This document shows positions 1 through 17,945 of a DNA stretch of 22,269 nt, piece after piece. The translations under genes were made by a program, and so were the position numbers. The notes beneath the pieces were generated by a model. The model saw only the letters and a list, made by a program, of their open reading frames with translations, did not search any database and had not been told where the DNA came from. The DNA comes from a virus. The stretch spans positions 1-22,269 of the IMG/VR virus record IMGVR_UViG_3300029448_000491. One strand, given 5' to 3'. The stretch's first letter is position 1; every line of letters starts with the position of its first letter.

Positions 1-412
1 TATCATCTTCAAGAACAAAAAGAACATCACCTGCAATAATTAAGTGTTGTAAGGCAAGGAACACGACTTCTCTAAGGTTTTTAGATTTAAGTTTTGTATA
101 TACTTGGTCAGCTAACGACTCTAAATAGTTATTAATTTGTACGCTAGGTGTTACGCCGTCTTTAATAGCAAACTTAAAAAAGGGATCTTCATTCAAAGGA
201 ATTAATGCAGATAGCATTTTACTAGACATTGCCGTAACTCCTCTGGCGGGAACAGAGGAAAACGGAGTATACAAAGAATCTTCCTCTCCATGCGACTCCG
301 GGGGAAGGATAGAGGGAATAGTAAGCTTAGAAGCTTCCCTAGCATGATCCAGTTTCCTCTGTCGTTTAGAATTTAAAAGACGATAACGATCTGCTAAGGT
401 TTGTTCTGACAT
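1..412 (-). CDS. Portal (head-tail connector) protein, T7 gp8-like, N-terminal part
   Basis: This ORF starts at an ATG at 412 and runs off the left edge, so only the first 137 residues are visible. I translated it by hand. The N-terminus reads as a podoviral connector: a basic RYRLLNSKRQRKLDHA helix, a TIPSILPP segment, then SSVPARGVTAMSSKMLSALI followed by PFFKF. That order (RAxxxxxxTIP, then GARGVxxLxxKL, then FF) is typical of T7 gp8-type portals, which form the dodecameric DNA channel at the capsid vertex. A GAGGAG ribosome site lies 8 nt upstream, just inside the end of the preceding gene. It marks the start of the structural module, which would continue left of the window. The family is fairly certain; completeness cannot be judged. 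Confidence 0.87.
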   Translation of the reverse strand, partial: MSEQTLADRYRLLNSKRQRKLDHAREASKLTIPSILPPESHGEEDSLYTPFSSVPARGVTAMSSKMLSALIPLNEDPFFKFAIKDGVTPSVQINNYLESLADQVYTKLKSKNLREVVFLALQHLIIAGDVLFVLEDD

Positions 413-1245: not shown

Positions 1246-1460
1246 TAAAAGCCTCCTCTTGTTTTATCTTGAGCTTTAAGAATTTGTTTTAATTTATCAA
1301 TAACAGATACCTGCCCAGCATTCTGGGCAAGCATCTTTATGAATTGTTCTGTAGGTACGTCCGGGTCAAACTGAATCGGAGGATACATTTTTTCGAGTTC
1401 TTCGATTAGTTTCGGATCTATTCTTGGAAAGTTCTTCAACTGTTTTCTCCAAAGTTTCAA
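1245..1460 (-). CDS. Unknown small protein, possibly the shifted-frame C-terminal half of the upstream ORF
   Basis: This open frame begins with a TTG at 1460 and has no convincing ribosome site. An in-frame ATG at 1388 also lacks one. The part after residue 12 looks like genuine protein (IDPKLIEELEKMYPPIQFDP, then a helical IKMLAQNAGQV region). It overlaps the preceding ORF (1366..1557) by 95 nt in the +1 frame. That ORF degrades into unlikely sequence (ETNRRTRKN) just where this one becomes plausible. So the two may be one protein made by +1 frameshifting, or joined by a sequencing indel, rather than two genes. The downstream gene starts at its stop as TAATG. Confidence 0.55.
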   Translation of the reverse strand: MKLWRKQLKNFPRIDPKLIEELEKMYPPIQFDPDVPTEQFIKMLAQNAGQVSVIDKLKQILKAQDKTRGGF

Positions 1461-1557
1461 GTCGATCAGTCCACGTCTTAATAATCAAAGACATTTCAGC
1501 TTGATTAAGTGGTTGCGCTCTGTCTAACTTAAATTGAATGTTAGGACTAAGTTCCAT
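1366..1557 (-). CDS. Unknown small coiled-coil protein
   Basis: A 63-residue ORF. I chose the ATG at 1557 because GGAGG lies 6 nt upstream, inside the last codons of the previous gene; the longer GTG start at 1569 would sit on top of that site. Residues about 16-45 (AEMSLIIKTWTDRLETLEKT) look like an amphipathic helix or coiled coil. The last 20 residues are Arg/Asn/Ser-rich and look out of frame, which fits the idea that the true product continues in the +1 frame (see 1245..1460). No function can be assigned. Confidence 0.6.
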   Translation of the reverse strand: MELSPNIQFKLDRAQPLNQAEMSLIIKTWTDRLETLEKTVEELSKNRSETNRRTRKNVSSDSV

Positions 1558-1558
1558 T

Positions 1559-1753
1559 TTAACCTCCACCTACAGTTCCATCAATAGCTGTATCTAGGGC
1601 TTGCGTCATTTGTTCAAACTTTTCGGTTTGTCCGTCTCTAACTGCTTTTACTGCTCCAATCGATCCCGCACCCATAACAGTACCCAAGATCATATACTCA
1701 GCAGTCTGCATTCCAGACTCATCCGATAAAAATCTTTTAATGTTTTGTAACAT
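1559..1753 (-). CDS. Flp/Tad-type prepilin-like small protein
   Basis: A 64-residue protein whose N-terminal half matches the layout of type IVb (Flp) pilins. It has a short basic leader (MLQNIKRFLSDESG), then MQTAEY, then a hydrophobic helix (MILGTVMGAGSIGAVKAV). Flp prepilins are cut by the Tad prepilin peptidase after Gly in the motif G/XXXXEY. Here Gly14, four residues, Glu19 and Tyr20 fit exactly. The C-terminus (residues 40-64) is polar and ends in GTVGGG. The start at 1753 has AAAGGA 6 nt upstream, and the gene follows the ribonucleotide reductase by 9 nt. A generic single-span phage membrane protein such as a small holin is the alternative. Pilin-like sequence is seen; pilin function is inference. 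Confidence 0.6.
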   Translation of the reverse strand: MLQNIKRFLSDESGMQTAEYMILGTVMGAGSIGAVKAVRDGQTEKFEQMTQALDTAIDGTVGGG

Positions 1754-1762
1754 GTTGTTCCT

Positions 1763-3700
1763 TTACTTTACTAAATCTACTATTTCGCAAGATCCACCTT
1801 GGCAGGCAAGGCTATGCGAGTTAATTGTTGTATCCTCTTTTTCGTAAGAACTAAGAGTATTAAAGTTAACATCGCTTGGCATGTTATCTTTCATAGTTTG
1901 ATATGTCTGCTCATCGCAGGCCTCAAACGGAGCTTGTTCGTATACATGGTCATCAGAAGGCAAGAAGGAGATACCAGAAACATATTTCCAATTATCCCAT
2001 ACCCATTGACCAATAGACAGGAACTCATCATCTTGATAAGATACTGTAATACTAGGCTTATGATGGCACCAGTATCGTTGGTATAGCAACCATAGATCTA
2101 AGTGATCGAGTGCTTTGATATTCTTCTGAGTCACAGTACTGCAAGGAGACTTGATAGGGAAAGAAAACACATGGGTTGTGTCTGGTCTTTGCATACAAGG
2201 CTCACTTGGAATGTTGTGGTCTACCATAAACTTACAAATAGGGTCAGTAATATCTGCTCGAACACGGCGAATGTAATAATCGCTATATCGAGGATGCATT
2301 CCTGAGGATGTTCCCGCCACACAGGAGGTAGTTCCACTAGGCTTACAGCAAGTAATAGATTTACTTGGACTAATACCAAGCTTGCCTGCCCATCTTAGGT
2401 TGGTTTTTACAGCTTCTTCTCGTAGTTCTTCTAGAACATAAGAAAGCTTACCTTTGCCTAGCTGCCCGCTCATTAACTTACTGTCGTAAATACCAGTGAA
2501 CGATACACCAAGAAGTCTTTCTTCTTCGCAGTTTTCCTTAAACTCTTTTCGTAGATAAGGAAACGCAGTGAAGGAGGACTGGATTGTACCTAAGATGGTA
2601 GCCATTTGTACCTTTTTACGAAGGCTTTCTAGGTCATCTTCTGGCCTTACAACAACTTCTGTTAGATTACAGAATTGATAAGGACGAAGGATAATTTCAG
2701 AACATGGGTTTGTTCCAAACTTAATGCCTTCTGTCTTACGTCCAGCCTTAGCTGCAATCCTAGACATAGCTTCTTGATTACAAATACCGCGCTCTCCCGA
2801 CCTTGAATCGTAGAGATGGCTCCATTCTTGGAGGAACTGACCTAGATCAGGCTTGTGATCATATACAGCGGAGTTGTTAGCGAGGCTTCTATGCCCTGAG
2901 CTTTCCCACCAAGGACCAGCCTTAGCCTTAGCCATTTCATGATCTGATACATCGCTTAGTGAAATCAAGGCTGATCGTCGAACCGCACCGGCAATAACAA
3001 TCTCACCAATTAGACATACAATATCATGTACTTCAATAGGCTTGAGCTTTCTGCCAGCACAGTTATAGAACAGCTTAACAATATATCTAAACAACCGTTC
3101 AAGTGGTTCGGGGCCGCTTGCGCGACCACCAAAAGTCTTTAGCCTTGCTCCAGCAGGACGAACTAGGGAGGTGTCCCATGTAGGATGCACTCCATCGTAT
3201 AGATAATTAAGAAGCTTTCTAAGAGCCTCGGCCCAGCCTACTCGGGAGTCTTCAACCAAAATCTTATCATCATTTTTGTTAATCTCAGAAGGAACCTTTG
3301 GAAGCTGCTCTGTGTATTCTCTTTCACAAGAGAAGCCTACTCCCGTTCCGCAACATAAGATATACAAAACCTCAGAAAAAGAGCGAGTGTCTTTAATAGG
3401 CAAGTAAGAGCAGTTGTAGAAAACGGTGTTGTCTACATCAGCCGCTGGACCTGCGCTCATCAAAGCCCTCATTGAGGGGAACACTTCTAGATTATTTGTG
3501 GCTTCTTTACATTCATTTAGAGTTTGGGAGTAATCTGTGTTGTCTTCCTGTCCCACCAATAAATATGTATTATTGTAAACATAATCATAGTATCGGCTGA
3601 CACATTCATCCCAAGTTTCTCGTCTGTTCTTTTCTTCAACCCACTTACAGTAACGCGAAGTTACAATAAACTGCTGAAATAGGTCCATTTCTTTGTTCAT
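1763..3700 (-). CDS. nrdJ: Adenosylcobalamin-dependent (class II) ribonucleotide reductase
   Basis: A 645-residue monomeric class II reductase that converts ribonucleotides to deoxyribonucleotides with a B12-derived radical, so it needs no oxygen and no small subunit. Visible signatures are VFYNCSYLPI (Cys97, one of the substrate-reducing pair), NPCSEI (thiyl Cys333 and Glu335) with Cys344 in QFCNLTEV, CKPSGTTSCVAGTSSG for phosphate binding, and the C-terminal redox pair CQGGSC (Cys633, Cys638). All residues expected for activity are present. It is about 90 residues shorter than the Lactobacillus triphosphate reductase. The ATG overlaps the upstream stop as ATGA. It sits with exonuclease, polymerase and ThyX and supplies dNTPs for phage replication. 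It implies a host that makes or imports cobalamin. Confidence 0.95.
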   Translation of the reverse strand: MNKEMDLFQQFIVTSRYCKWVEEKNRRETWDECVSRYYDYVYNNTYLLVGQEDNTDYSQTLNECKEATNNLEVFPSMRALMSAGPAADVDNTVFYNCSYLPIKDTRSFSEVLYILCCGTGVGFSCEREYTEQLPKVPSEINKNDDKILVEDSRVGWAEALRKLLNYLYDGVHPTWDTSLVRPAGARLKTFGGRASGPEPLERLFRYIVKLFYNCAGRKLKPIEVHDIVCLIGEIVIAGAVRRSALISLSDVSDHEMAKAKAGPWWESSGHRSLANNSAVYDHKPDLGQFLQEWSHLYDSRSGERGICNQEAMSRIAAKAGRKTEGIKFGTNPCSEIILRPYQFCNLTEVVVRPEDDLESLRKKVQMATILGTIQSSFTAFPYLRKEFKENCEEERLLGVSFTGIYDSKLMSGQLGKGKLSYVLEELREEAVKTNLRWAGKLGISPSKSITCCKPSGTTSCVAGTSSGMHPRYSDYYIRRVRADITDPICKFMVDHNIPSEPCMQRPDTTHVFSFPIKSPCSTVTQKNIKALDHLDLWLLYQRYWCHHKPSITVSYQDDEFLSIGQWVWDNWKYVSGISFLPSDDHVYEQAPFEACDEQTYQTMKDNMPSDVNFNTLSSYEKEDTTINSHSLACQGGSCEIVDLVK

Positions 3701-5961: not shown

Positions 5962-7643
5962 TAGTGTGTCTCCGACCAGTTAGAACCAATTTTGTACTCA
6001 CCATCTAAGGGCATTTGTACTCCTAGTTTTTCTCCAGCAGTAATGATGCTCTCCACTCCGGCTCTACCAATATCTTCGGCAATTTCAGAAGGACACTCCA
6101 ACTGCCATTCATCATGTACAGTAGCCATGAACTTAACTCCCTTGGTTTTGTTTATCTTAGTGTCTAAAATAGCTTGAGCCAGTTTCATAACAATAGCTCC
6201 GTCACCCTGTAGCTGGACATTCAATGCAGCATGTTCACTACGACAGGGAACCTCTCGTCCATCGAGAAGAGTGATTGTTTTCTTCTTAGCTACTTGAAAC
6301 TTTACTTCATCAATAAGCTTCTTAAGTGCTGGCATGTTACGAAGAAATCGTTGCTTCAATGTACGTCCGTTCTGTCCAGTGATTTTAGAGATCTTATCAT
6401 CACCAGCCCCGTAAATGAATCCGTAAAAGAAAGTTTTACAGACAGCACGGCTTTCGATACCAGCTTGTATCATATTGTAGTCATGGATATCTGAACTTAG
6501 AATCACTTCAGCATACTTGCCATTATCATACCTAGCCATTCTACTGGCAAGCATTCTAGCTTCCAAACCAGACGCATCAATTCCCACCATTACATTACCT
6601 TCTGTAGGCATAAACAAAGATCTCATTCTTGGATCAGAGTTTACTTGTTGAAGGTTAGGTTGCGAAGCAGTCATCCTACCAGTAACAGTACCTTGCGGAT
6701 TGACATTGCCATGAATACGTCCATCTCTGGAGTTAGCAGCCCGAGTACACCAATCGGTTACTTGACCCTGCATCTTTGTAAGGTCAAAGTAAGTAGCAAG
6801 CTTAGATGCTTCAGGAAAGTCTAAAGACTTAAGAACATCTGAATCTACTTTAGGGTTTCCTTTTTCAGTCTTAGGAGCAACCCACTTATATTTATCATAA
6901 AGTCTTTCGGCTATCTGTTGACGAGAGCCGGGGTTAAAGATTGTGATCTTATCTTTGAGTCTTTTTCCTGTTTTGTCCGAGACTCGTATTTCAGTCTTTG
7001 CAGGAAATACACACCTAAGATTATCCTCGATCTCTGCTTTTTCTAAACTAAGAAGCGCATCGAGTCTAGTGGCTTCTGGTAAATTAAAAGCTATGCCATT
7101 TTCAATTTGCTTTGCAATAATGTCTGTGACAAGGTGTTCAAGAATAACTGATTTATTGTATTTGTTAATAAAGTTTTTCTGTGCAATCCAGATCTTTTCA
7201 TTAACGTCAACATCTCTAATACAATATTCAATCATCTCATCAGAACATTCTTTCCAACCGCCTTGGTAATCCATTTTCTCGAAACCAAGGTGCTTACCCC
7301 AGCAAGCCAGAGAGTTACCGCCCAGCGGGTTCTGGCTCTTCTCGGGATACATCATTCTTGAGACAATGAGAGTATCCAGTTTCCTAGTTCGTATAGGCCC
7401 GAAGAGACGTACAAGAACGGGTACATCATAGAGCGTAATATTGTGGCCGATAAGAAGATCGGCATTACGAAGAGCAGCAATACCAGATTCCATATTAGTT
7501 TCAGTGTAAACATTAGTTTCTCCTGTGTCTACGTTTTTAGTTACAAGGCAGTGTACCTTGGTTACTTCTTTCTGTGGCTCACCTTTTTTATTGAGGGTGA
7601 GTTCGTTAAGCCCATCGGCTTCGATATCAAATACAAGTTTCAT
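5961..7643 (-). CDS. DNA polymerase, family A, T7 gp5-like, with 3'-5' exonuclease
   Basis: A 560-residue replicative polymerase. The proofreading domain has DIEADGL (Asp6, Glu8), GHNITLYDVP and YCIRD (Tyr140, Asp144). The polymerase domain has TGRMTASQPNLQQV, motif A VGIDASGLEARM (Asp356), motif B RAVCKTFFYGFIYG (Arg399, Lys403, Tyr407) and motif C VHDEWQ (His510, Asp511, Glu512). All catalytic residues are present. The residue matching E. coli 762 is Tyr, as in T7. At 560 residues against 704 for T7 gp5 it is short, and I see no room for a thioredoxin-binding loop in the thumb, so processivity may be handled differently. The ATG at 7643 has AGGA upstream. It is followed at once by the small ORF at 5961. 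Confidence 0.95.
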   Translation of the reverse strand: MKLVFDIEADGLNELTLNKKGEPQKEVTKVHCLVTKNVDTGETNVYTETNMESGIAALRNADLLIGHNITLYDVPVLVRLFGPIRTRKLDTLIVSRMMYPEKSQNPLGGNSLACWGKHLGFEKMDYQGGWKECSDEMIEYCIRDVDVNEKIWIAQKNFINKYNKSVILEHLVTDIIAKQIENGIAFNLPEATRLDALLSLEKAEIEDNLRCVFPAKTEIRVSDKTGKRLKDKITIFNPGSRQQIAERLYDKYKWVAPKTEKGNPKVDSDVLKSLDFPEASKLATYFDLTKMQGQVTDWCTRAANSRDGRIHGNVNPQGTVTGRMTASQPNLQQVNSDPRMRSLFMPTEGNVMVGIDASGLEARMLASRMARYDNGKYAEVILSSDIHDYNMIQAGIESRAVCKTFFYGFIYGAGDDKISKITGQNGRTLKQRFLRNMPALKKLIDEVKFQVAKKKTITLLDGREVPCRSEHAALNVQLQGDGAIVMKLAQAILDTKINKTKGVKFMATVHDEWQLECPSEIAEDIGRAGVESIITAGEKLGVQMPLDGEYKIGSNWSETH

Positions 7644-9866: not shown

Positions 9867-9884
9867 GTAGTCTCCCTGTAAGAA

Positions 9885-9957
9885 TACCCTCACTTGGACT
9901 CGAACCAAGGACCAATCGGTTAAAAGCCGATTGCTCTACCAACTGAGCTATGAGGGC
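9885..9957 (-). tRNA. tRNA-Lys (anticodon UUU)
   Basis: A complete 73-nt cloverleaf on the minus strand. The acceptor GCCCTCA pairs with TGAGGGT and A is the discriminator. The D arm is TAGCTCAGTTGGTAGAGCA. The anticodon stem ATCGG/CCGAT holds loop CTTTTAA (anticodon UUU, codon AAA/AAG). The T arm is CTTGG-TTCGAGT-CCAAG. The 3' CCA is not encoded. The only wobble in the acceptor is the first pair (G-U). Confidence 0.95.
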
Positions 9958-9978
9958 AGTAGCTCTGGTAGTGCTTAT

Positions 9979-10215
9979 TTAGTTAGTACCAAACAAAGCA
10001 CACCAGAGACTAGAACACTTAGACTTCTTACCACAAGGGCATGTCTGAATATCCTCTGGGTTTTTCTTAGCTCTATTAAGACCTCTCTCTACTTCTGAGT
10101 CAGTGAGAAGAATTTGGTAGGGCTTACCTTTATATGTGACAGAAGACTGCCAATAGTTCTTAGCTTCCTTCGCTGTCTTTCGATTCTTGTTCTTTTTTCG
10201 GCTGGAGTTTTCCAT
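9979..10215 (-). CDS. Unknown 78-aa protein with Cys-rich C-terminus
   Basis: The N-terminus is highly basic (SSRKKNKNRKTAKEAK). The middle reads SVTYKGKPYQILLTDSEVER, and the C-terminus has five cysteines in TCPCGKKSKCSSLWCALFG, which could bind a zinc ion. The start at 10215 has AAGGAA about 8 nt upstream and overlaps the preceding gene by 56 nt. The gene ends 21 nt before tRNA-Lys. A nucleic-acid-binding role is suggested by charge and possible zinc binding only; no family recognised. Confidence 0.7.
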   Translation of the reverse strand: MENSSRKKNKNRKTAKEAKNYWQSSVTYKGKPYQILLTDSEVERGLNRAKKNPEDIQTCPCGKKSKCSSLWCALFGTN

Positions 10216-10363
10216 TTTTTAATTCCTTTTTTCCAAAGATTTTATCGTAATTTTCTCTATACTGTTCTTCGTCCGTTTTACGACGAACGCTTCCTTTGCC
10301 ATACATTTGGTGTCTTACCTGTTTACGACTCCATTTGCATTCGCTATTCCAATCTTTAACCAT
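10160..10363 (-). CDS. Unknown small basic protein
   Basis: A 67-residue, Lys/Glu/Arg-rich hydrophilic protein with no recognised motif. Its ATG at 10363 lies only 4 nt after the 3' end of tRNA-Arg. Its only ribosome site is GGGAG, which is part of the tRNA acceptor/T-arm sequence. Translation would therefore compete with tRNA folding and 3' processing. It overlaps the next gene by 56 nt in another frame. Probably real, because the next gene's ribosome site is separate and good, but evidence is modest. Confidence 0.58.
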   Translation of the reverse strand: MVKDWNSECKWSRKQVRHQMYGKGSVRRKTDEEQYRENYDKIFGKKELKNGKLQPKKEQESKDSEGS

Positions 10364-10367
10364 AAAG

Positions 10368-10441
10368 CACTCCCGGCAGGACTCGAACCTGCAACCTGCG
10401 GATTAGAAGTCCGCTGCTCTGTCCAGTTGAGCTACGAGAGC
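10368..10441 (-). tRNA. tRNA-Arg (anticodon UCU)
   Basis: A complete 74-nt cloverleaf. The acceptor GCTCTCG pairs with CGGGAGT with two G-U pairs and G as discriminator. The D arm is TAGCTCAACTGGACAGAGCA. The anticodon stem GCGGA/TCCGC holds loop CTTCTAA (UCU, codon AGA). The T arm is GCAGG-TTCGAGT-CCTGC. CCA is not encoded. The first 10 nt overlap the end of the deaminase-like gene, whose TAG stop is tRNA positions 8-10. Confidence 0.95.
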
Positions 10442-10788
10442 AAGATGATACCCTCTCTCGTAGTGTAGTATATGTTGTCAAATATTTCCAGACACCAAGG
10501 CAAGCATTTAACACAGGGCTTTGACATTCGCATCTGACCATATCTATTATATCGAAAGTTAATCAGGGTAAGTTTAGTTCTTTGATCAATCTTTCTGAGA
10601 GCATCAAGCTCTGAATGTAATTCATTGTACCTGTACCCATATTTAGCTGCAAGGGGATGAGTCTTGTGTTGATTAATACCAACTGATAGGATTTTATTTC
10701 CTCTGCAAATAATAGAGCAGTGTTTTTTAGACAACGGATTATTAATACAATGCTTCAGACCAATGGGAACAACCGCATCTAGCTTCAC
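10432..10788 (-). CDS. Cytidine/deoxycytidylate-deaminase-fold protein
   Basis: A 118-residue protein with the zinc site of the deaminase family: HSELDA (His58, catalytic Glu60) and KPCVKC (Cys92, Cys95). In phages such proteins often deaminate dCMP to dUMP, the substrate for thymidylate synthase, which would link it to ThyX in this window. The small size also fits a tRNA or free-nucleoside deaminase, so the substrate is not settled. It begins with GTG at 10788, overlapping the previous stop as GTGA. It ends inside tRNA-Arg. Confidence 0.8.
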   Translation of the reverse strand: MKLDAVVPIGLKHCINNPLSKKHCSIICRGNKILSVGINQHKTHPLAAKYGYRYNELHSELDALRKIDQRTKLTLINFRYNRYGQMRMSKPCVKCLPWCLEIFDNIYYTTREGIILLS

Positions 10789-11309
10789 GATTCACATCCT
10801 TTATAATAATGCTCAAGATACAAATCTGTCCATACTGGCATTCTGCTTGTAATAAGAAACTCAGCAGCTTTGATACTTCTTGTGTCAACTAAATCCTTTT
10901 TAATGTGCCAATGAGAAAGAATAGTATAACAAGAAGCATTTGGAAATAGGTTTAACATTTTTGAAATCTCATCCACTATTTCTATTTTATCGGGGTACTT
11001 TTCTTTTAACAAAGATCTAAGCCTATTGAACACCGGGTCTGGCTCTCCTTTTACAAAAGAAGATCCCCATCCGGGTACTTTGTACCCTCTAGATAAAGCA
11101 CCATACGCTTCAGCAATAGGATTGGAACAAGAAAGCAATCTATTTGTTTGACTAAGAGGAGCGTGTATATTTCCTAATGTAAGTAATGCAGCGGGAAGGG
11201 TAGAAAAGAAATCTTTACCAAGCATTGCACCTTGAATAATAGCAGTAGTACTAGCGTTAAATCTTTTAGCAATCGTTTGATGTACTAATTCTAGTTCTTT
11301 TAGAATCAT
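10785..11309 (-). CDS. Citrate-synthase-like protein, C-terminal-type fragment, probably not catalytic
   Basis: A 174-residue protein that I read as the citrate synthase fold. It has LPAALLTLGNIHAPLSQTNR (His49 where the first catalytic His would be), then YKVPGWGSSFVKGEPDPVFN, which parallels the family's vPGfGHxvyk...DPR. It also has FPNASCYTILSHW and ITSRMPVWTDLYLEHY, matching the C-terminal R...GWxxHxxE region. In the second motif the catalytic His of GFGH is Ser83. It is less than half the length of a bacterial citrate synthase (about 430). AAGGAG lies 6 nt upstream of the ATG, right after the tRNA-Ile-like gene. The family assignment is from pattern matching and is moderately sure; function is unknown. 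It could bind acyl-CoA or host citrate synthase. Confidence 0.68.
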   Translation of the reverse strand: MILKELELVHQTIAKRFNASTTAIIQGAMLGKDFFSTLPAALLTLGNIHAPLSQTNRLLSCSNPIAEAYGALSRGYKVPGWGSSFVKGEPDPVFNRLRSLLKEKYPDKIEIVDEISKMLNLFPNASCYTILSHWHIKKDLVDTRSIKAAEFLITSRMPVWTDLYLEHYYKGCES

Positions 11310-11324
11310 AATATCTCCTTGTAA

Positions 11325-11404
11325 TCCTCAGAGCAGGATTCGAACCTGCGACATGACGGCGATTATAAGTCACCCGCTACAACGCCTACGCAGCTTGCCT
11401 GAGG
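11325..11404 (-). tRNA. Unusual tRNA, probable tRNA-Ile (anticodon UAU)
   Basis: An 80-nt tRNA-like sequence. The acceptor CCTCAGG pairs with TCTGAGG (last pair G-U), and A is the discriminator. The D arm GCTGC-GTAGGCGTT-GTAGC has a GG in the loop. The anticodon stem GGTGA/TCGCC holds loop CTTATAA (UAU, codon AUA). The T arm GCAGG-TTCGAAT-CCTGC is canonical. Oddities are a three-base linker CAA without U8 between acceptor and D stem, a five-bp D stem and an 8-nt variable loop. It may be a divergent working tRNA or a decaying copy. Confidence 0.62.
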
Positions 11405-11408
11405 TAAA

Positions 11409-11439
11409 CCCCCCTGCCTCCAACTCGGAGACAGAGGGG
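11409..11439 (-). terminator. Strong 13-bp hairpin before tRNA-Ile-like gene (terminator or processing site)
   Basis: Read on the minus strand, CCCCTCTGTCTCC and GGAGGCAGGGGGG form a 13-bp stem around a GAGTT loop. Two of the pairs are G-U, which would be A/C mismatches on the other strand, so the minus-strand RNA is the form that folds. It is followed by only TTTA before the tRNA. That is a weak U-tract for an intrinsic terminator, so an RNase processing signal is as likely. Confidence 0.55.
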
Positions 11440-11595
11440 CGGATTGACGGTCCTGCTGGTAAGTTCAACAGAACCAAGGTAGCGACAATCTAAATCTTGA
11501 GGCAACGTAGATACTCTTCACCTGCTTAGCAATATTGGATCACATTGTTAAAGTTGTGAATGAATAGATTTAGATGCCGCACCAGTCAAACCAAA
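11440..11595 (-). ncRNA. Predicted structured RNA with a three-way junction, between two tRNAs
   Basis: No ORF fits here, but the minus strand folds very well. P1 pairs GGTTTGAC (11592-11585) with GTCAATCC (11448-11441), with one T-T mismatch. P2 pairs GGTGCGGCATCTAAATCT (11583-11566) with 11497-11478, giving 18 bp with two single-T bulges. P3 is a 10-bp hairpin (11475-11449) with loop AACTTAC and three G-U pairs. Linkers between helices are 1, 2 and 0 nt, which makes a tight three-way junction. Inside P2 two more hairpins are possible, TCACA/TGTGA and GCAGGTG/TACGTTGC. Several G-U pairs would be mismatches on the plus strand, so the RNA is minus-strand. I do not recognise an RNA class; marine phage RNAs that sit near tRNAs (for example the manA or GOLLD classes) should be compared. 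Confidence 0.62.
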
Positions 11596-11669
11596 TAGCT
11601 CCGGTGGGATTCGAACCCACACTGTATGGATTTTAAGTCCACTGCCTCTGCCAATTGGGCTACGGAGCC
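11596..11669 (-). tRNA. tRNA-Leu (anticodon UAA) with short variable loop
   Basis: A 74-nt cloverleaf. The acceptor GGCTCCG pairs with CGGAGCT and A is the discriminator. The D arm is TAGCCCAATTGGCAGAGGC. The anticodon stem GTGGA/TCCAT holds loop CTTAAAA (UAA, codon UUA). The variable loop ACAGT is only 5 nt, and the T arm is GTGGG-TTCGAAT-CCCAC. Bacterial leucine tRNAs normally have a long variable arm, so the identity rests on the anticodon. Confidence 0.92.
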
Positions 11670-11673
11670 AAAG

Positions 11674-16937: not shown

Positions 16938-17945
16938 TCAGACAGACATAGCCATCTTCATGACTTGGCTGGAAGAATCCGCAGCCTTACCAATAAGATT
17001 GTTATGAATACGACTATTATCTGACATCTTACGACCCCGGCTACCTTCACGATGCTGAAGCCAATTCGTTACAGCATTGGCAGCAGTCCAAGCGGTAGGC
17101 CTGAGACCATGCTCTGATCGCTCACCATCAAATACCTGCGACCACTCAGCCAAGGTTTGAGCGGCCTTGATAGTAGCTCTCTCTTCCTTTTCGGTAGTAG
17201 GATTAGCGGTAAAGGGTTCCTGAAGCTCAGTGTATACCCTAACCCAGAAGTTCTGGATGTCGGCGGTATTCATAAACTTACTATTAAGAATCTGAACCTT
17301 ATCTTGGAACATGCTACCAGTTTCACGGAATCTCTTGAGAGCGCGGCGAAGATCAGCAATCTTCTCTGTCATCTCTCCGGTATGCTTGATACGGTAGAGA
17401 TTACGGCCACCCTGAGAGAGAGCCATATTCAGAGTGTTAGCACAAACAACCCGAACGCTAGTCGGAAGACCACTGAGCGAGAGGGTTCCGTTGAAGCTGT
17501 TAAAAAGCCCCAGATATTGAGTAACACTATCATTTTCACTACCAACATCAAAGGTATCTCCTCGAAGCATGATATAGATCTTCTTGTTATTGTCGAGACT
17601 ACCTGCTGTCTCAACTCGAACATCAGCACCAAGCTCGTAAGCAATATCAAACAGTTCCTCATTCTGAACAACCTGATAGCTTGGAGAGACAAGACCAAGA
17701 ATGTCACCAGTATCCTGACGGATAGTAGCTACATTCTTAGTGCTGATAGCGTCTTCAATTTCACCATCCTCATTCTCATACTCAGCAATGATACTAGGAG
17801 ACTTAACAACCTTCCAGTCAAGGCCTGAGAGGCGAAGAGCCTCAGCAGGAGACGGAGAGTGTTCGACAACAGTACCAAGACCGTGCCAAGCAGGCTGACC
17901 ATTAGCGTACATAGCGGTATCATTTTCATACATTTCGTGTGACAT
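16938..17945 (-). CDS. DUF932 phage/plasmid-like protein
   Basis: A 335-residue member of the DUF932 (phage/plasmid-like, TIGR03299) family. Marks are PAWHGLGTVVEHSPSPAEAL near the N-terminus, VSPSYQVVQNEELFD, a central FNSFNG and TSVRVVCANTLNMAL, followed by a helical C-terminal half. Family members are common in phages and plasmids and have no established biochemical function; some lie near replication genes. Here it comes directly before the RNA polymerase. The ATG at 17945 is preceded by a stop 3 nt away. Length is typical of the family. Confidence 0.82.
   Translation of the reverse strand: MSHEMYENDTAMYANGQPAWHGLGTVVEHSPSPAEALRLSGLDWKVVKSPSIIAEYENEDGEIEDAISTKNVATIRQDTGDILGLVSPSYQVVQNEELFDIAYELGADVRVETAGSLDNNKKIYIMLRGDTFDVGSENDSVTQYLGLFNSFNGTLSLSGLPTSVRVVCANTLNMALSQGGRNLYRIKHTGEMTEKIADLRRALKRFRETGSMFQDKVQILNSKFMNTADIQNFWVRVYTELQEPFTANPTTEKEERATIKAAQTLAEWSQVFDGERSEHGLRPTAWTAANAVTNWLQHREGSRGRKMSDNSRIHNNLIGKAADSSSQVMKMAMSV

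Follow-up and report, generated by a model that had tools for sequence, protein, structure and literature searches.

Tad pili are a widespread apparatus for adhesion and surface sensing, and they also serve as a phage receptor. The mature form of the Caulobacter pilin PilA begins at residue 15, and the Tad filament is built on the hydrogen bonds that its Glu19 and Tyr20 form between subunits (PMC11067988). The outward-facing C-terminal end of PilA contributes to the binding of phage PhiCb5, for which Tad pili are the receptor; a pool in the membrane allows pilins to be recycled (PMC11067988). Phage proteins that block superinfection via type IV pili include PfsE, which acts on PilC, and Tip and Aqs1, which act on PilB (PMC8764522). 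Known phages inhibit pilus motors; a phage-borne pilin opens a direct test of pilus remodelling by subunit replacement. Here, we analyse a candidate Tad prepilin gene of a marine phage, in a single virus record of 22,269 bases (IMGVR_UViG_3300029448_000491), the whole of which we call the window.

Results

A prepilin-like open reading frame

The minus-strand open reading frame at 1559-1753 starts with ATG and encodes 64 amino acids, MLQNIKRFLSDESGMQTAEYMILGTVMGAGSIGAVKAVRDGQTEKFEQMTQALDTAIDGTVGGG; the plus strand of this interval has no open frame. The original prediction described a Tad prepilin peptidase site in this peptide, and Gly14, MQTA, Glu19 and Tyr20 are present exactly as it stated, after a basic leader (K6, R7). 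The resulting Tad prepilin pattern is G14/MQTAEY, with cleavage of the leader predicted after Gly14. The hydrophobic helix said to follow the site is also present, but its hydrophobicity is moderate: the best 17-residue Kyte-Doolittle mean is 1.5, similar to that of the host homologues described below (1.4-1.7) and lower than that of canonical Flp (2.7-3.1). The gene and its parts are as follows.

1559..1753, minus strand: Flp/Tad-type prepilin gene, 64 aa, assigned from the open reading frame, 20 viral contigs with homologues and homologues in host Tad loci
1712..1753, minus strand: codons of the predicted 14-residue leader MLQNIKRFLSDESG, with leader length as in Caulobacter PilA and G14 invariant
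1694..1699, minus strand: codons of Glu19 and Tyr20 (E5 and Y6 of the mature pilin), invariant in viral and host homologues
1637..1699, minus strand: residues 19-39, the main helix predicted for the mature pilin (AlphaFold2)

When the residues of the pilin were shuffled, the motif fell within the first ~25 residues in 1.0% of shuffles, and the motif followed by a comparable helix was found in 0.035%. Only one of the 87 six-frame open reading frames of at least 40 aa in the window, the pilin itself, carries the motif. AlphaFold2 predicted a long helix at residues 12-39 and a shorter one at 43-53 (mean pLDDT 81.8, pTM 0.47), a prediction of modest confidence in which one of five models was confident. 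The modelled build is of the Flp/Tad-prepilin type, with a 14-residue basic leader, then a helix and no globular domain; the C-terminal part is Gly/Asp-rich (DGTVGGG). A Foldseek search of the model against the PDB gave no match, as is expected because the pilin is a single helix.

Family assignment

Scans of the lone pilin against Pfam, PHROG and NCBIfam were nearly blank. Taken alone they would suggest an unknown protein, and the identity was settled only by homologues and profile comparison. The best Pfam match, DUF4244 (PF14029), has an E value of 0.0025, lies below the family cut-off (17.6 versus 27 bits) and spans the leader and cleavage site only. No match of the lone pilin to Flp_Fap (PF04964; curated cut-off 32.2 bits) was reported. 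The copies found in host Tad loci likewise fail PF04964; thus, the model misses this clade, and failure does not separate the window pilin from real pilins. A comparison with the Flp pilin family at the profile level, which the original prediction had proposed, gave a clear result: hhalign aligned the viral family with planctomycete Flp_Fap (PF04964) pilins over 62 columns with a probability of 97.6% and an E value of 2.6e-12. The score was 58.9, whereas 100 column shuffles reached 19.2 at best; probabilities for unrelated small membrane proteins were 0.1-0.3%. A profile search of the PDB with the viral family returned chance hits only. Clear homology to a holin or virion protein had been named as evidence against a pilin, and no holin or virion family in Pfam, PHROG or NCBIfam matched. 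A holin identity was ruled out on this ground together with the conservation, which follows pilin residues.

Viral homologues

Two scans of IMG/VR yielded 20 contigs with pilin relatives, or 21 counting the window. The viral alignment comprises 17 sequences drawn from these contigs, namely the window protein and 16 relatives that are 69-81% identical to it. G14, E19 and Y20, the residues whose conservation the original prediction proposed to follow, are invariant in all 17, as are M15, Q16, M21, I22, L23, G24, T25 and a VRDG block; no viral homologue without G/XXXXEY was found. G14, M15, Q16, E19 and Y20 are invariant also in four host Tad-locus pilins. The family signature GMQT[AG]EYMILGT is usable to find further members.

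The pilin reading frame is intact in every viral lineage. Between the window and the other viral copies, pS is 0.6-0.96, so that synonymous sites are near saturation, and pN is ~0.08-0.19. Across all viral pairs and 44 codons, pN/pS has a median of 0.20 and finite dN/dS one of 0.10. These values indicate that the gene is kept under strong purifying selection.

Pilin-bearing phages fall into at least six lineages: the window; the T7-like L012-L016, with a portal 32% identical to that of the window and a phrog_267 capsid; L001-L006/L018/L020-L025, with contigs of up to 73 kb; L011/L024/L029/L033; L026; and an 82-kb and a 118-kb contig, which carry terminase matches. The neighbours of the pilin gene differ from one phage group to another.

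Two arrangements recur upstream of the pilin. One is a cassette in which genes for a coiled-coil protein with a single helix and for a lipoprotein that has additional hydrophobic segments precede a 46-aa membrane open reading frame and the pilin, some of them with overlapping ends (L014 3917-4806, L024 1558-2462, L026 7267-8198, L033 7282-8230, L029 7290-8183, L011 1052-1945). This cassette is common to phages with little else in common and possibly consists of lysis or envelope genes. The other is a 136-aa phrog_38283 protein of unknown function with a three-helix, holin-like appearance, encoded two genes upstream of the pilin (L021 7416-7826, L025 6650-7060).

Cellular relatives and the likely host

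A scan of 84,980 bacterial and archaeal species genomes found pilin relatives in two marine planctomycete MAGs only, an uncultured Phycisphaerales bacterium and Planctomycetes bacterium TMED75. Each MAG has two tandem flp copies, which are 72/59% and 67/58% identical to the window pilin. In L034, where the neighbours were examined, the copies come directly after genes for RcpC/CpaB (2e-19), a secretin (4e-42), a T2SSE (CpaF-type) ATPase (6e-65), two T2SSF proteins (1e-14, 6e-13), a 188-aa protein of no family and a TPR protein. This gene content identifies a Tad locus, with the host copies at its end. A Peptidase_A24 (prepilin peptidase) gene lies on the same contigs as the host flp copies (2.4e-15, 7.6e-17). 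The seven phage records examined had no such gene, so processing of the phage protein would depend on the host. Weaker pilin relatives in other planctomycetes bridge to canonical Flp pilins.

Three independent lines of evidence, namely homologues that keep the motif, cellular homologues in Tad loci with a peptidase, and profile-profile similarity, bear out the proposal of a phage-encoded Flp/Tad prepilin. We consider it very probable that the window protein is a homologue of Tad pilins.

The pilin gene was almost certainly derived from the likely planctomycete host. In a tree of viral and host pilins (64 columns), 20 of 35 inner branches are open, so the number and direction of transfers are not countable from the tree. 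The phage host is most likely a marine planctomycete (Phycisphaerales), an assignment based on pilin similarity from two MAGs only. The original prediction had guessed an alphaproteobacterial host, which we dropped because the genome scan found only planctomycetes.

Genome context and insertion site

The minus strand of the window carries T7-like genes for a single-subunit RNA polymerase, primase/helicase, DNA polymerase, exonuclease and a gp2.5-like SSB, as well as ribonucleotide reductase and thymidylate synthase; the portal gene is at the left edge of the window. The pilin gene lies between the reductase and a small gene leading to the structural block. Its surroundings are as follows.

1763..3700, minus strand: ribonucleotide reductase, upstream neighbour of the pilin (phrog_367, E 7.7e-169)
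1759..1762, minus strand: Shine-Dalgarno-like AGGA used by the pilin (alignment of the window with L101, L096, L106 and L100)
1560..1752 (approximate), minus strand: one-cistron insertion of about 190 bases compared with the empty site (blastn of flanks and alignment)
1562..1570, minus strand: GGTGGAGGT, the last Gly codons of the pilin, which contain a GGAGG resembling a Shine-Dalgarno site 5 bases ahead of the following ATG (1557) (sequence)
1366..1557, minus strand: 63-aa coiled-coil-like protein, downstream neighbour of the pilin, conserved in relatives without the pilin
1..412, minus strand: portal (head-tail adaptor), first of the structural genes and truncated at the end of the window (phrog_449, E 5e-23)

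Relatives with a close reductase (L096, L097, L098, L100, L101, L106) have the same gene order without the pilin: reductase, a 63-75-aa gene, a 47/71-aa gene, a 149-150-aa gene, a 117-122-aa gene and portal. The whole 65-kb record of L106 has no pilin elsewhere. In blastn comparisons of the flanks with L101 and L096, the match ends at window position 1751 and resumes at 1560. The flanking DNA of L101 is 93% identical up to 1751 and 77% identical after resuming at 1560, a drop that suggests a recombination border at the pilin site. The pilin is thus a precisely inserted accessory cistron, recently gained or lost, since near relatives share the gene order and lack it. In relatives with the empty site, the AGGA at 1759..1762 acts for the following gene, and the GGAGG within the last codons of the pilin probably couples it to the next gene. 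That gene, encoding the 63-aa protein, matched no PHROG and gave no convincing hit in Pfam. At 1584-1556, the minus strand carries a sequence resembling a sigma-70 promoter, but such sites do not exceed chance (5 found, 8.1 expected). Farther downstream, a 14-pair stem-loop with a terminator-like flag and a weak T tail lies inside the 71-aa gene (1305-1336, minus strand).

Discussion

Comparison with described pilins and pilus inhibitors

Like the Flp/Tad major pilins (PF04964; Caulobacter PilA; PDB 8u2b, 8ucr, 8u1k), the window pilin has a 14-residue leader ending in Gly, the G/XXXXEY site, Glu and Tyr at mature positions 5 and 6, and a short single-helix mature form encoded in ~60 codons without a globular domain. 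Gly14, Glu19 and Tyr20 occupy the same positions as in Caulobacter PilA. Unlike these pilins, it is encoded by a phage, its helix is less hydrophobic, its C-terminal part is rich in Gly and Asp, and it falls below the PF04964 cut-off. It is closer to the tandem flp genes of the Phycisphaerales Tad loci (L034, L035), with 58-72% identity over the whole length and a common core of GMQT[AG]EYM and VRDG; in contrast to these, the phage copies are single, and no other Tad gene was seen with them. The positions that separate all viral from host copies are mostly in the C-terminal half (42-61). Like PfsE, Tip and Aqs1, the phage pilin is a small phage protein encoded by an accessory gene and would target the pilus machinery of the infected cell. 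Those proteins bind PilC or PilB, whereas the phage pilin is itself homologous to the pilus subunits and would function as one of them.

A possible role in superinfection exclusion

We propose that the prepilin is made after infection from a gene between the replication and structural blocks, and that a CpaA-type peptidase of the host would cut off its 14-residue leader. The mature subunit would join the pilin pool of the inner membrane and be assembled by, or compete for, the host Tad machine. In this way the pili of the infected cell could be changed, or kept up once host pilin synthesis stops, and rival phages with the Tad pilus as receptor would meet altered, saturated or jammed pili. The simplest reading is that the host machine processes and assembles a subunit whose surface, timing or amount differs. 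It is likely that the phage pilin enters the host Tad pathway. An assembly-competent pilin is favoured by the sequence over a defective, dominant-negative one, which is less likely because the residues needed for assembly are kept. That the benefit is superinfection exclusion can be put forward only tentatively, with the action of PfsE, Tip and Aqs1 on type IV pili as its closest precedent (PMC8764522). The explanation as a whole, in which a planctomycete-derived prepilin is fed to the host Tad machine and changes the pili, with superinfection exclusion as the likeliest benefit, falls a little short of an even chance.

Alternatively, with fresh pilin from the phage, an infected cell whose own genes have been silenced might go on extending Tad pili and hold on to particles or other cells, in which case progeny would be released among new hosts. 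T7-type phages take over host expression, and the protein appears to be a full pilin, competent for assembly, that shows no trace of a poison subunit, its G14, E19, Y20 and helix being conserved under purifying selection. However, given the short infection and the recycling of pilins through the membrane pool (PMC11067988), upkeep may need no new synthesis. Such pilus upkeep is the main alternative, though we regard it as unlikely.

It is less probable again that the pilin acts with the adjoining small membrane proteins to permeabilise the unusual planctomycete envelope, as an accessory holin or a spanin-like protein. The gene order in several relatives invites this idea: the pilin directly follows the coiled-coil protein, the lipoprotein and the 46-aa membrane open reading frame, which sometimes overlaps the pilin start, and in L021 and L025 it is preceded by the 136-aa holin-like protein and a 59-aa membrane protein. 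Yet no lysis family was matched, the window pilin has ribonucleotide reductase and a soluble coiled-coil protein as neighbours, and near relatives live without it; moreover, the conserved residues are pilin-specific, and a holin would not need them.

A protein that is packaged, ejected or released with the lysate, acting on the host surface or soaking up rival phages, is very unlikely. In the window the gene does border on those for portal and capsid, and in L014 the pilin lies between a gene in the scaffold position and the capsid gene, but elsewhere it is away from recognised structural genes. Packaging needs no prepilin leader, and near relatives form virions without the pilin. Nothing in the analysis supports the display on the virion that the original prediction had offered as one option. 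Chance resemblance or a non-functional remnant, which the shortness of the protein and its score below the PF04964 cut-off might suggest, has a negligible probability and is already refuted by the reading frame that is intact in every lineage, the dN/dS of about 0.1, the profile-profile E value of 2.6e-12 and the homologues in host Tad loci.

Pilins in other phages

That several unrelated phages carry the same pilin points to phage interference with the pili of infected hosts. A pattern scan of viral contigs for canonical GATAIEY pilins gave 42 loci, most of them Flp-like and probably most of them proviruses with host flanks; L114, L116 and L138 were taken further. The scan thereby uncovered canonical Flp pilins in three independent marine viral contigs of 183, 94 and 77 kb (L150-L152), at 5971-6153 in L150, 5971-6153 in L151 and 5995-6153 in L152, and the two sequences tested are above the PF04964 cut-off (E 7.9e-8, 5.3e-9). 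The 183-kb record has a terminase match (1.2e-53). In L152 (IMGVR_UViG_3300030329_003925), a TadE pseudopilin (PF07811, 5.6e-11) is encoded 0.9 kb downstream of Flp, at 7082-7498. Because a different pilin type occurs in different phages, phage-borne Tad subunits probably arose more than once.

As far as our searches show, a phage that brings its own pilin is undescribed within deposited phage records and the open-access literature. Among 50,697 deposited phage records, neither the window pilin nor a canonical Flp query had a match, and a second canonical query gave an insignificant chance hit only. The open-access literature, to which the search was confined, held no account of a comparable pilin encoded by a phage, and a single phrase search of the literature found no phage for planctomycete hosts. 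We see an even chance that unrelated marine phages independently took host pilin genes (Flp and, once, also TadE) and remodel the pili of infected cells by subunit replacement, an undescribed form of interference. Such subunit replacement would concern phages of Tad-piliated planctomycetes and perhaps of other bacteria. The pilin would also tie otherwise unassigned marine viruses to planctomycete hosts.

Other features of the window

Four tRNA genes (Lys-ttt, Arg-tct, Ile-tat, Leu-taa) lie on the minus strand at 9884-11670 of this T7-like phage. A gene for a DUF932-like protein (16938-17945; phrog_1221, 1.3e-55) adjoins the thymidylate synthase gene, and the 82-kb contig with a pilin (L030) likewise has both genes close together, where they are 34% and 56% identical.
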